From Synechococcus elongatus PCC 11801 (GTDB lineage: Bacteria; Cyanobacteriota; Cyanobacteriia; Synechococcales; Synechococcaceae): a stretch of DNA of 64,000 bases. The stretch is from assembly GCF_003846445.2 (NCBI RefSeq), contig NZ_CP030139.2, positions 2,593,501 through 2,657,500 on the forward strand, written 5' to 3'. A program made the translations under genes and the position numbers. The notes beneath the pieces are model-generated. The model had not been told where the DNA came from and did not search any database. It was given only the letters and a program-made list of their open reading frames with translations. Below are positions 46,063 to 50,217 of this stretch, in pieces; within the stretch, counting starts at the first letter, position 1, and each line of letters begins with the position of its first letter.

Positions 46063-46158
46063 GGATTGCCGAAGCGAAATAAAGGACAGGGTGCAGATTA
46101 AACCCATCATGCCGTATCGCTTGGACTGAGCGATCGCAACACCACCCTTCCCTAGTGA

Positions 46159-47139
46159 CTACAGGCTTTCCGTCACTGGTTTACCAAACCAGCGATCGCT
46201 CAACTTGACGTACCAAGCTGCAGCTTGCACCTGAATGATGTAGCTCATGGAAATAATCAGGGCAATTTCAGCGCCTGCTTTCGCCCCAAACACAGTCATG
46301 GCAATAGCCAAGGCGATCGAAAGATTCCGCATCACCGTACCGTAGACGAGAGCGATCGCATCTTCGCGAGAAAACCAGACCTTGCCAACGATCGTGCTCA
46401 ACATAAAGTTGATCAGATAAATCAGCAGCAGTGGCCCAAAGTAGCCGAGAAATATCAACGGCGCGGCTACAATTGCTTTTGCTTTGAGCGCCATTGCCAC
46501 AAACACGATGCCTAAGACACCCAGCGTTGAGAAGACCGGAAATTTTTTCTTTAAATCTCTCTCGTATTTCTGTTGACCAACAGTTGCAATTAGAACGCGC
46601 TTTGTCACCAAGCCAAGAATCATGGGTAAAAAAACCACGATCGCAATTTGCTTAAAGGTTTCCACCAACGGAATTTCAATGGCTCGTCCTAGCAGCGCTT
46701 GGGCATAGAGTGGAGTCGCCAAAGAACCTAAAATCAAGCCGATGACCGTCATTTGAATCGCGGCTGTCAGATTGCCTTTGGCAAAGCCTGTCCAAGAAAT
46801 AGTCATGCCACTTGTGGGCAGTAATCCTGTCAGCAATAGCCCCAACCAGATCAGTGGCTGATCGCGAAAGAATAGCCAGCCAATACCATAGGCCAAGAAT
46901 GGCACAATGCCAAAATTAATCAATTGGGCGACCCCTTGGAGCTTCCAGTTTCCCCCAGCAATTAACTTGCCAAACTGTAGGTTAATCATCATGGGATAAA
47001 CCATGAGAAATGTCAGCGGAACAATTAAATCTTTCAGTCCACTAGGATCGATCAGTAACCCAAATAGAATCCCAGCAATCATGAAGCTGGGGACAGACCA
47101 AACCAGTTGATTCTGTAGCAGTGATAGAAATGTCCACAT
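46159..47139 (-). CDS. BART-superfamily (ACR3/bile acid symporter-like) transporter
   Basis: 326 residues, nine or ten membrane segments. The conserved pair of BART motifs is visible (LVYPMMINLQFGKL; GLLPTSGMTISWTGFAKGN; VYGTVMRNLSIALAIAM). It resembles ACR3-type arsenite exporters and bile-acid:sodium symporter relatives. It lacks an obvious Cys in the fourth helix that is used by arsenite ACR3, so another anion such as a sulfur oxyanion is possible. It lies downstream of the DUF302 gene on the minus arm of a divergent cluster with a sulfide:quinone reductase-like gene. Confidence 0.8.
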   Translation of the reverse strand: MWTFLSLLQNQLVWSVPSFMIAGILFGLLIDPSGLKDLIVPLTFLMVYPMMINLQFGKLIAGGNWKLQGVAQLINFGIVPFLAYGIGWLFFRDQPLIWLGLLLTGLLPTSGMTISWTGFAKGNLTAAIQMTVIGLILGSLATPLYAQALLGRAIEIPLVETFKQIAIVVFLPMILGLVTKRVLIATVGQQKYERDLKKKFPVFSTLGVLGIVFVAMALKAKAIVAAPLIFLGYFGPLLLIYLINFMLSTIVGKVWFSREDAIALVYGTVMRNLSIALAIAMTVFGAKAGAEIALIISMSYIIQVQAAAWYVKLSDRWFGKPVTESL

Positions 47140-47241
47140 TGCTGGTGTTCTCCGATCCGTCAGTCTCAGAACGTTGAATTGCCCTCAATCGCCTAGATAG
47201 TCCGTGAACTCCTCTGCTTCAAAGGCGGATATGAGCTGTGA

Positions 47242-47625
47242 TTAAAGCTGTGCGATCGCCTGTTCCATCAGGGTTTTGGCTTCCAAAGCGATCGCACGAG
47301 TCTCAGGATTTTCGAGCGCGGCAAACATCACTGCCGGATCGATCGCAGAGACCTCAACACAGCCGTTTTCATGTTCTTGCACCACCACATTGCAGGGGTA
47401 GAAAACGCCTGCTTTGTCCTCCGCCTGTAGGATGCTGTAGGCAATGCGGGGATGACAGGCTCCCAAGATGGTGTAGTGCCGGAACTCCACATCAAGCTTT
47501 TGTTTAAACGCCGCTTGGGCGTCAATTTCCGTCAGCACCCCAAAGCCATGCTGTTTCAAAACTTCTTTGGTGTGGCTGAGAGCATCATCAAAGGGCAACT
47601 GGAGAACTTTGCTGAGGTGATACAT
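47242..47625 (-). CDS. DUF302 protein
   Basis: 127 residues from ATG 47625 (MYHLSKVLQLPFDDALSHTK), with GGAG about ten bases upstream; the open frame extends 17 residues further without support. DUF302 features are FRHYTILGACHPRIAYSIL, GVFYPCNVVVQE and VSAIDPAVMF. Two conserved cysteines (in GACHP and YPCNV) are present. DUF302 proteins often sit next to sulfur or thiol genes; activity unknown. First gene of the minus arm opposite the SQR-like gene. Confidence 0.85.
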   Translation of the reverse strand: MYHLSKVLQLPFDDALSHTKEVLKQHGFGVLTEIDAQAAFKQKLDVEFRHYTILGACHPRIAYSILQAEDKAGVFYPCNVVVQEHENGCVEVSAIDPAVMFAALENPETRAIALEAKTLMEQAIAQL

Positions 47626-47785
47626 CTGATCAAACTCCGTCTGGGGTGAGTCGGGGGCTCTGTCAGCGGCAGGCAACTAGCCAACCACAAGCCCAGGAAG
47701 TGCTAGGGCATGATCCGCGGGCGATCGAACTAGCGGGAAGGATTCAGAAGGAATGCGATCGCCTCTAGCTGACTCCGTGAATAAA

Positions 47786-47809
47786 CTATATAACTAAATA
47801 AGTAAATAG
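47786..47809. promoter_or_regulatory. AT-rich inverted repeat, candidate ArsR-family operator
   Basis: CTATATAACT-AAAT-AAGTAAATAG: half-sites agree at seven of ten positions. It lies 22 bases before the flavoprotein start, between divergent arms, where an ArsR-type repressor would control the + arm. The surrounding 30 bases are almost entirely A/T in an otherwise GC-balanced region. Confidence 0.45.
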
Positions 47810-47827
47810 CAACTAAGGGGATCCCCA

Positions 47828-49183
47828 GTGATGGCACAAGTTGTTGTAATCGGTGCAGGGTTGGGCGGATTGCCGACAGCCTATGAACTACGACATTGGC
47901 TCAAAGGCGGGCACCAGGTCACTCTGGTCTCTAATCGTTCTCAGTTCACTTTCATTCCCGGCCTCATTCACGTGGCGTTGGGCAAGATTCCCCTCGACCG
48001 TGTGCAGCTGGATTTAGCTTCCCTGTGTCAGCGCCATGGCCTGAATTGGGTCGATAGCGCCGTAGAGCGGGTTGATCCCGATCGCCGAATTGTGCGCTTG
48101 GCCAATCATCAGACGCTGGACTACGACTATCTCGTCATCGCCAGTGGCCCTTCCTTTGCCTTTGATGAAATTCCCGGTTTAGGGCCGCATGGAGGTTACA
48201 CCCAATCGGTCTGTAACCCAGCCCATGCCTTGGAAGCACGAGAAGCATGGGAGTCCTTTCTCAAAAATCCAACCGATTTGGTGGTGGGTGCTGCGCCTAA
48301 AACAGGTTGCCTCGGGCCTGCCTATGAGTTTGCGCTGGCGGCTGATCAAGCGTTGCGCAAACGTGGCCTGCGCGATCGCGTCACGATTACCTACATCACG
48401 CCTGAACCCTATGCCGGTTATTTGGGGCTGCCCGATCTCTATCTAGCTCGCGAACTGACGGAAGGAGTTTTAGAAGAACAAGGGGTGAAAGTAGTCACCA
48501 ATGCGGCGATCGCCCAAGTGTTTCCCGATCGCGTGGAATTAGCAGATGGCCGCCAATTTCTCTTCGGTTACGCGATGATTCTGCCGGCTTTCCGAGGAGC
48601 GGACTATGTTCAAGTCTCTGGTTTAGGCAACGATCGCGGCTTCATTCCCATCCTGCCGACCCAGCGTCACCGCGACTACGAACGAATTTATGCCCTGGGC
48701 GTGAGCGTGCAGCTAGAGCAGCCCTATCGCACCCCTGTTCCGATCGGTTTGCCAAAAAGCGGTCAGATGAGTGAAGCGATGGGCGCAGCTGTAGCTCACA
48801 ACATTGCCGTCGATTTAGGTACTCTGTCTGGCCCCCACCAAATCCCAACCCTTGAAGCGCTCTGCTTTGCGGAAATGGGTCAAACGGGCATTGCCTATAT
48901 TGCTGCCCCAATTTTGCCCGACCCAGTCAGTGGGCGACGACGCTATTCCTACGCCACCCGAGGCGCATGGGTAAATTGGGCCAAAGCTGCCTTCGAACGC
49001 TACTTCCTACTCAAAATGAAATGGGGACTTGGGCTACCTTGGTTTGAACTGTGGGGGTTGAAATTACTCTTTGGTCTTTCACTCTTGCGCCCCATCAGTC
49101 CCTCCGATCAGTCCGATACGCCCCCCACTCTCCATGCCCCGCACCACGCCTCAGACTCTGTTGAGCTCACCCGGTACCGCTGA
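47828..49183 (+). CDS. Sulfide:quinone oxidoreductase-like flavoprotein
   Basis: 451 residues from GTG 47828 (ATG 47831 is as good; AAGGGG precedes both). FAD-binding VVVIGAGLGGLPTAYEL at the N-terminus. Three cysteines sit where SQR has its catalytic set: C129 (QSVCNPAHA), C161 (KTGCLGPAYEF) and C346 (LEALCFAEMG). A C-terminal amphipathic region (AAFERYFLLKMKWGLGLPWF) would hold it on the membrane, as in SQR. The enzyme would oxidise sulfide and reduce plastoquinone, giving polysulfide or persulfide. It overlaps the ArsR-type gene by about 50 bases. Confidence 0.85.
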   Translation: MMAQVVVIGAGLGGLPTAYELRHWLKGGHQVTLVSNRSQFTFIPGLIHVALGKIPLDRVQLDLASLCQRHGLNWVDSAVERVDPDRRIVRLANHQTLDYDYLVIASGPSFAFDEIPGLGPHGGYTQSVCNPAHALEAREAWESFLKNPTDLVVGAAPKTGCLGPAYEFALAADQALRKRGLRDRVTITYITPEPYAGYLGLPDLYLARELTEGVLEEQGVKVVTNAAIAQVFPDRVELADGRQFLFGYAMILPAFRGADYVQVSGLGNDRGFIPILPTQRHRDYERIYALGVSVQLEQPYRTPVPIGLPKSGQMSEAMGAAVAHNIAVDLGTLSGPHQIPTLEALCFAEMGQTGIAYIAAPILPDPVSGRRRYSYATRGAWVNWAKAAFERYFLLKMKWGLGLPWFELWGLKLLFGLSLLRPISPSDQSDTPPTLHAPHHASDSVELTRYR

Positions 49184-49520
49184 ACTAGAGACATCTAGCA
49201 CCAGTCCTGACCTCGATCGCTTGGCTGAATTGTTCAAAGTCTTGGGCGATCGCAGCCGCCTTGGAATTCTTTGGCGCATCTGCCAAGGGGAATGCAATGT
49301 GACTGAGATCAGTGAATCGACTGGTTTGAGCCAAGCCAATGTCTCGAAGCATTTGCAGATGTTGCGAATGGCTCGTTTGGTGGCTTGCCGCAAGGAGGGC
49401 AATGCTCGAATCTACTTTCTGTCGGATCCTCAATATTCCGGCCTTTGTGCACGTTCCCTGATCGACTTGGCTAGCTTATCGCCCGTGGAAGTCTCTAGCT
49501 GTGACGAGGCCAGAGCCTAA
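49134..49520 (+). CDS. ArsR-family transcriptional regulator, Cys-rich
   Basis: 128 residues from ATG 49134, inside the end of the flavoprotein gene; the frame is open further upstream. Winged helix: LAELFKVLGDRSRLGILWRI, GLSQANVSKHLQMLRMARLV, RIYFLSD. Cysteines at 50, 54, 85, 105 and 123. The CxC metal site of arsenite-type ArsR (CVCDL) is not present (here CNVTE), whereas a pair such as C50 or C54 with C105 is reminiscent of the persulfide sensors SqrR/BigR. It probably represses its own divergent cluster. Confidence 0.9.
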   Translation: MPRTTPQTLLSSPGTAELETSSTSPDLDRLAELFKVLGDRSRLGILWRICQGECNVTEISESTGLSQANVSKHLQMLRMARLVACRKEGNARIYFLSDPQYSGLCARSLIDLASLSPVEVSSCDEARA

Positions 49521-49612
49521 CTGTGGTCTCCATGGGTCTGCAGAGAACCTGAAGGCGATCGCGGATCTACGGGGCAGTGGCTATAAAAACAAGCAGCACA
49601 GCATTCTCTTGC

Positions 49613-49966
49613 ATGATCCATAACTACCCAGACCTAACCGAGAACCTCAATCACTCCCTTGCGCAGTTGCACCATGAAATCCCTGAGACCCTAAAGGGCT
49701 TTGGGCAGATGGCTCGCAGCATTCACAATGACGGGGCGTTGAGCAGTAAAACCAAGGAACTGATTGCTATGGCGATCGGGATTGCAGGTCGCTGCCAAGG
49801 CTGTCTGGGTTTCCATGCCAAGATGCTGGTGCAGATGGGCTGTACTCGGGCTGAGTTTCTGGAGATGCTGCAGGTGGCTATCTACATGGGCGGTGGCCCA
49901 TCGCTGATGACAGCGGCTGAGGCGCTACAGGCCTATGAAGCCTTTGGTGGTGAGCAGGCGGGCTAG
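49613..49966 (+). CDS. AhpD-like (carboxymuconolactone decarboxylase family) protein
   Basis: 117 residues from ATG 49613; a GTG at 49577 would add 12. The core SSKTKELIAMAIGIAGRCQGCLGFHAKM holds the CxxC-x3-H (here CQGC) of AhpD-type alkylhydroperoxidases. A disulfide reductase or peroxidase-like role is likely; lactone decarboxylation is not expected. It follows the ArsR gene by about 90 bases and probably belongs to the same transcript. Confidence 0.87.
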   Translation: MIHNYPDLTENLNHSLAQLHHEIPETLKGFGQMARSIHNDGALSSKTKELIAMAIGIAGRCQGCLGFHAKMLVQMGCTRAEFLEMLQVAIYMGGGPSLMTAAEALQAYEAFGGEQAG

Positions 49967-50217
49967 CGATCGCGGATCACCGGCGTCCATGCTGCGGAGT
50001 GGGGTAATGGAACCTAGAAAAGTCGGTTTGACTGTTCGTTGAATGCTCAGCGTCTAAGTCTGATGCGTCTGTTTCTGAAACAAACGAGTCAGTCGATCCC
50101 CAGTCAAAATCTGCAACCGCGATCCGGTTCATTGCTGCGGGAAAGAGTGGTTGCCACTGAAAGTGAGGCTCTGCGCCCTAAAATCGGGAGATGCGATCGC
50201 CCTGAGGGGTTGAACAG

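Follow-up and report, generated by a model that had tools for sequence, protein, structure and literature searches.

A suo-type divergon variant with a BASS-family transporter, probably gained horizontally, in a cyanobacterial chromosome

The window analysed here is a stretch of 64,000 nucleotides (C1:2593501-2657500) from a cyanobacterial genome of 2.80 Mb. It contains a chromosomal block, with alaS on one side and a helicase-type gene on the other, that carries five intact open reading frames on two divergent arms. The five genes named in the original prediction are all real, each confirmed by a Pfam family match (SBF, DUF302, Pyr_redox_2, ArsR HTH_5 and CMD/AhpD). The features are as follows.

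46125..50166, no strand: inserted block of ~4.04 kb without counterpart in the sister species, where only 2 nt separate the alaS flank from the downstream gene
46159..47139, minus strand: BASS/SBF-family transporter, 326 aa, no Cys (Pfam SBF 2.6e-28)
47242..47625, minus strand: DUF302 protein, SuoC homolog, 127 aa (Pfam DUF302 6e-22; 49% to pSYSM SuoC)
47787..47808, no strand: predicted SuoR-type operator TATATAACTAAATAAGTAAATA between both arms (match to consensus)
47831..49183, plus strand: type I SQR homolog, SuoS-like, 450 aa, with C128, C160, C345, H132 and Tyr197 (phmmer to A. ferrooxidans SQR 3e-89; 61% to SuoS; tree)
49134..49520, plus strand: ArsR/SmtB-family regulator, SuoR homolog, 128 aa, 5 Cys (NF033788 84 bits, cut-off 55; 61% to SuoR over 101 aa)
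49613..49966, plus strand: AhpD-like/CMD protein with CxxC, RCQGCLGFH (Pfam CMD 6.6e-19; phmmer to AhpD 5dik 1.6e-33)

For the SQR homolog the most likely start is ATG 47831, as in SuoS (MAQIVVIGAG), rather than GTG 47828. Its three cysteines had been predicted at 129, 161 and 346; they are present, but the numbers were one too high because the upstream GTG had been taken as the start. The DUF302 protein starts at ATG 47625 (MYHLSK; compare MYYFSK in SuoC), and the AhpD-like protein probably at ATG 49613, its frame being open also from GTG 49577. The expected overlapping, cysteine-rich ArsR begins at ATG 49134, shares 50 nt with the end of the SQR gene and carries cysteines at 50, 54, 85, 105 and 123. 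The AhpD-like protein carries the predicted CxxC, followed by His, in a matching CMD fold. The impression that all five products look thiol-active fails for the BASS protein, which has zero cysteines.

This layout resembles the suo divergon on plasmid pSYSM of Synechocystis sp. PCC 6803 (sll5036-sll5035 / slr5037-slr5038), where the order chrA-DUF302<->SQR-ArsR-DUF3365-DUF3122 corresponds to suoT-suoC<->suoS-suoR. In the account given in PMC4307280, SuoR represses the two arms by binding to the promoter they share, and SuoS acts as an SQR of type I; results of the original suo study (Nagy et al. 2014) are cited as relayed in PMC4307280 and PMC5061849. The window likewise has SQR and arsR divergent from a DUF302 gene (SQR 61%, ArsR 61% and DUF302 49% to the pSYSM proteins), with an operator of matching consensus between the arms. 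It differs in having a BASS transporter in place of the ChrA-type SuoT, AhpD rather than DUF3365-DUF3122 after ArsR, Tyr rather than His at position 198 of the SQR, and a chromosomal rather than a plasmid location. Because the transporter belongs to the SBF family and is not a ChrA-type SuoT, we treat the module as a variant and not as the same operon; judged by sequence, it is a suo-type divergon variant with a different transporter, probably gained horizontally. The closest relative is the Limnothrix cluster BASS-DUF302<->SQR-ArsR-DUF3365 (L037, L039, L040), which shares both the operator and the Tyr substitution and differs in carrying DUF3365 where the window has AhpD. The suo architecture supports the earlier reading of a cyanobacterial sulfide/arsenite response. 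The description of the locus as a less described version holds for the transporter, whereas SQR, ArsR, DUF302 and transporter genes in divergent order were already described in Synechocystis.

The AT-rich palindrome that had been noticed between the arms is real and lies at 47787-47808. It matches 19/22 positions of the consensus TATATAACTAWWTAGTTATATA, derived from aligned divergent regions and common to other loci, a score equalled by none of 1000 Markov resamples. The window genome has exactly one such site when up to 3 mismatches are allowed, and a scan of the sister species genome for the operator found none. A candidate promoter of the minus arm, with its -10/-35 at 47812-47785, overlaps the operator, the count of such promoters being not above chance. 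Upstream sites scoring 16/22 or better were found at 32 of 37 SQR loci, 30 of them with scores reached in at most 1 of 100 shuffles. Four of the five loci without a site (L045, L066, L067, L086) also lack an adjacent arsR in the neighbourhoods examined; at the fifth, L046 (G170), a transposon-like open reading frame parts SQR from a site further upstream. What is new about the palindrome is its status as a predicted conserved operator, TATATAACTAWWTAGTTATATA, that precedes most relatives of this SQR in cyanobacteria.

Some of these exceptions can be described further. In G170 (L139, 480-1706), the frame between SQR and the upstream operator is IscB/TnpB-like, as judged by eye. The Picosynechococcus loci L066, L067 and L086 have SQR with neither adjacent arsR nor operator, so regulation there must differ.

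The operator also occurs away from SQR. As independent checks, an unlinked DUF302 gene in G169 has an upstream site of 18/22 (0/1000 resamples) and an unlinked DUF302-BASS pair in G284 one of 17/22 (1/1000 resamples). At the unlinked DUF302 gene of G114 the best match is 13/22, which does not amount to an operator, and the rhodanese-BASS pair of that genome has a weak site matched by 41/1000 resamples. Across 14 scanned genomes we found 22 sites in 10 genomes, against 6 with the reversed pattern. Eighteen of the 22 adjoin sulfide-linked genes, a label given after the genes had been seen. These genes, most of them identified with Pfam, are SQR, alternative psbA (L126, L127), DUF2892-Rieske operons often with rhodanese (L137, L140, L141), Fer4/Hdr-like genes (L133, L135), DUF3365 (L122) and a second SQR-like flavoprotein (L138). 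Sites beside no sulfide-linked gene are one in G284, an orthologous Limnothrix pair and a remnant in G011. In both Limnothrix genomes (L123, L124, L143), a 19/22 site lies ~300 nt away from a unit of two genes, one of them for an ArsA/GET3-like ATPase. Taken by their neighbours, the operator sites appear to outline a sulfide regulon.

Comparison with the sister species (G386) bears on the origin of the block. There the flanks align up to position 742882 and resume at 742885, with 2 nt between, a clean empty site. DNA similarity to Limnothrix extends over ~46151-49469 and stops at the ArsR end. AlaS is 98% identical to its counterpart in the sister species and 74% to that of Limnothrix, whereas identity to Limnothrix is 92-93% for BASS, 85% for SQR and 81-82% for DUF302. 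The contrast of AlaS at 74% with BASS at 93% and SQR at 85% favours gain over loss in the sister species. Such a loss is possible; the whole 4.0-kb block was probably gained horizontally. No integrase or transposase was found within it. An SQR and an AhpD had already been listed among S. elongatus PCC 11801 proteins absent from PCC 7942 (PMC6226537).

The nearest structures of the flavoprotein are type I SQRs (A. ferrooxidans 3e-89, Aquifex 8e-74; other types 2e-24 or weaker by phmmer), which places it with type I rather than with other SQR types or flavocytochrome c. C128, C160 and C345 align with C128, C160 and C356 of the A. ferrooxidans enzyme (PDB 3sz0 and variants), and His132, Glu166 and the C-terminal K/F residues (K391 and F394 equivalents) are retained; from the second cysteine to the third, the window protein has ~11 residues fewer. 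The best-scoring SQR model in NCBIfam, that of the type III selenoprotein, was ruled out, its score of 110 falling short of the cut-off of 525. In A. ferrooxidans SQR, both His132 and His198 are reported to be essential for function (PMC6335251). The window protein has H132, but its Tyr197 takes the position of His198. Tyr197 is confined to the window protein and its two Limnothrix relatives, a new observation, while all 31 other cyanobacterial rows and A. ferrooxidans have His; of 60 columns that are otherwise invariant, this is the only one at which the clade departs. Tyr259 is likewise specific to the window protein and both Limnothrix rows. With His198 replaced by Tyr, quinone-reducing activity is not to be assumed, and we class the protein by its descent, as a homolog of type I SQRs.

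These two tyrosines, set against an otherwise invariant His198, could mean that the flavoprotein is no longer an SQR and that in this clade another thiol or persulfide is oxidised or another electron acceptor is used. We consider this quite unlikely: the three catalytic cysteines, His132, Glu166 and the C-terminal K/F residues all remain, the gene still sits beside regulator, operator and partners, and Tyr might serve proton transfer. A sulfide function of the module is very likely. Deletion of a related SQR in Synechococcus PCC 7002 showed a role in anoxygenic photosynthesis (PMC12466478). We assume the deleted gene to be the pAQ7 SQR gene, which is 51% identical to that of the window.

Distribution was followed through 386 cyanobacterial genomes, counting SQR relatives of ~49% identity or more. 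Such relatives occur in 33 genomes besides the window genome, one of them as a fragment (G172). BASS lies upstream of SQR in G033, G042 (Limnothrix), G107, G213, G211, G169 and G368, with a fragment in G172; DUF302 stands between the two in five of these genomes, and with ChrA in G083. The two arms, expected to be conserved together, are indeed co-conserved, whole or mostly: the core BASS-DUF302<->SQR-ArsR recurs in other cyanobacteria of several families, and BASS, DUF302 and SQR co-occur even when unlinked. A phylum search with BASS alone gave close relatives in 11 other genomes, 10 of which have the same SQR, and all nine other Cyanophyceae with DUF302 relatives have it too, some of the copies being unlinked. 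Co-occurrence of BASS with SQR and of DUF302 with SQR each has p ~3e-7 at genus level, with deeper relatedness still contained in these values. The exception among the BASS genomes, G011 (L116, 4622-8340), has a truncated BASS beside transposase-like open reading frames with a 20/22 operator remaining nearby, and resembles a decayed module.

The commoner transporter partner of this SQR is BASS, rather than SuoT/ChrA, which is new. Carriers of BASS, ChrA and DUF302 all fall within one 17-row group of the SQR tree (92/99), through which the BASS rows are scattered while two ChrA rows are nested as a pair (98/94). The simplest reading of this pattern is that BASS would be the older partner, with ChrA replacing it later.

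The BASS protein has no BLASTP-detectable similarity to SuoT. Against the ACR3 model TIGR00832 it scored 88 bits, far below the cut-off of 282.8; where ACR3 has its motif Cys (APCTAMVFVWS in the ACR3 of this genome), all members of the BASS clade have Thr, and a true ACR3 (360 bits) is encoded elsewhere in the same genome. Identity as ACR3 was rejected on these three grounds. They also weigh on the reading that the locus is mainly an arsenic (arsenite/antimonite) module, in which ArsR would sense As(III), BASS would be an ACR3-related arsenite carrier replacing SuoT, and SQR would have a side function. Its appeal lies in the ArsR family of the regulator, the remote ACR3 likeness of BASS and the role in arsenite transport reported for SuoT in the account of PMC4307280, which also weakens a sulfur reading of the BASS substrate. 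However, further copies of the operator lie beside psbA, Rieske and rhodanese genes and not beside arsenic-resistance genes, the exception being the Limnothrix site a few hundred bp from the ArsA-like ATPase gene, and we regard an arsenic module as unlikely. A sulfur anion as the BASS substrate is favoured by other SQR neighbourhoods, which contain a TauE sulfite-exporter-family or SulP protein. In G114 and G107 (L113, L041) a rhodanese gene directly precedes BASS, in support of a sulfane-sulfur setting for this carrier.

Homology and sequence strongly suggest that a single operator mediates repression of the two arms. Among the five cysteines of the regulator, C85 and C105 recur in almost every complete ArsR encoded next to SQR. 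The regulator scores 38 bits against 155 for the SqrR/BigR model NF040642. In SqrR the dithiol pair, C41 and C107, lies in helices alpha2 and alpha5; the equivalent positions here, taken from the offset at which SqrR (13ct) matched, are not Cys, with Cys 50, 54, 85 and 105 nearby. By analogy we infer the inducer, which may be sulfide, persulfide or arsenite, and the candidate sensing cysteines.

AhpD, predicted as a module member, falls outside the conserved set, the Limnothrix homology ending at the ArsR end, and by its position is a local addition. It is bracketed by 18-nt direct repeats (49555-49572 and 49966-49983, 89% identical) with the HIP1 octamer GCGATCGC. Lying between these repeats and beyond the Limnothrix-like DNA, the gene may have joined separately, like a separate cassette. 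Close AhpD relatives occur in nine other genomes, eight of which have the same SQR (genus-level p ~1e-4), and linkage to SQR was sought in all nine and found in none. A functional tie is possible, given that AhpD is found mostly in SQR genomes yet never linked. Operator-like sites were absent from most of these AhpD genes, with suggestive ones at the AhpD start in 2/9 (exploratory). That AhpD is an unrelated passenger, behind ArsR by chance, fits its place outside the shared block, its flanking repeats and its lack of linkage elsewhere; the shared occurrence with SQR and the two exploratory sites speak against it, and we put this reading somewhat below even odds.

We hypothesize, with a probability of roughly 0.75, that the locus is a suo-type sulfide-response divergon, gained as one horizontally transferred block, that works in the following steps. 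The SuoR-homolog ArsR would sit on the single palindromic operator and repress both arms until sulfide, persulfide or arsenite reacts with its cysteines and, as proposed from SuoR, releases it. The type I SQR homolog would then oxidise sulfide to sulfane sulfur or polysulfide and, by homology, pass electrons to plastoquinone. DUF302 and BASS would handle the product on the other arm; its export by BASS is plausible by analogy, and our best guess for what it would export is a sulfur anion, for example sulfite, thiosulfate or a polysulfide. AhpD would be an added accessory, probably reducing peroxides or persulfides. No persulfide dioxygenase gene was found within the inserted block, which counts against the proposed mechanism. 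In Staphylococcus, the cst operon comprises a regulator, TauE, rhodanese, persulfide dioxygenase and SQR. The two systems are alike in logic, with a thiol-sensing repressor over SQR, persulfide-handling genes and an anion exporter, and differ in regulator family (CsoR type versus ArsR), exporter family and gene set.

The proposed divergon would provide a freshwater cyanobacterium with a compact, switchable gene cluster for toxic sulfide, with an exporter that differs from its Synechocystis counterpart. The natural empty site in the sister species permits a clean gain-of-function test of whether the 4-kb block confers sulfide tolerance, and strict co-occurrence with SQR gives BASS and DUF302 a functional context. 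Tentatively, and at just under even odds, TATATAACTAWWTAGTTATATA may define a cyanobacterial sulfide regulon under a SuoR-type ArsR that includes SQR, alternative D1 (psbA), alternative Rieske, rhodanese, Hdr-like and DUF302/BASS genes; the window module would be its smallest, horizontally mobile form, and BASS a new sulfur-anion exporter family. In itself the module has only moderate novelty, and the regulon defined by the operator deserves more attention. How cyanobacteria change over from oxygenic photosynthesis to electron flow driven by sulfide, and back, is poorly understood; a regulon built on a 22-nt operator common to SQR, alternative D1 and Rieske genes could be tested directly.
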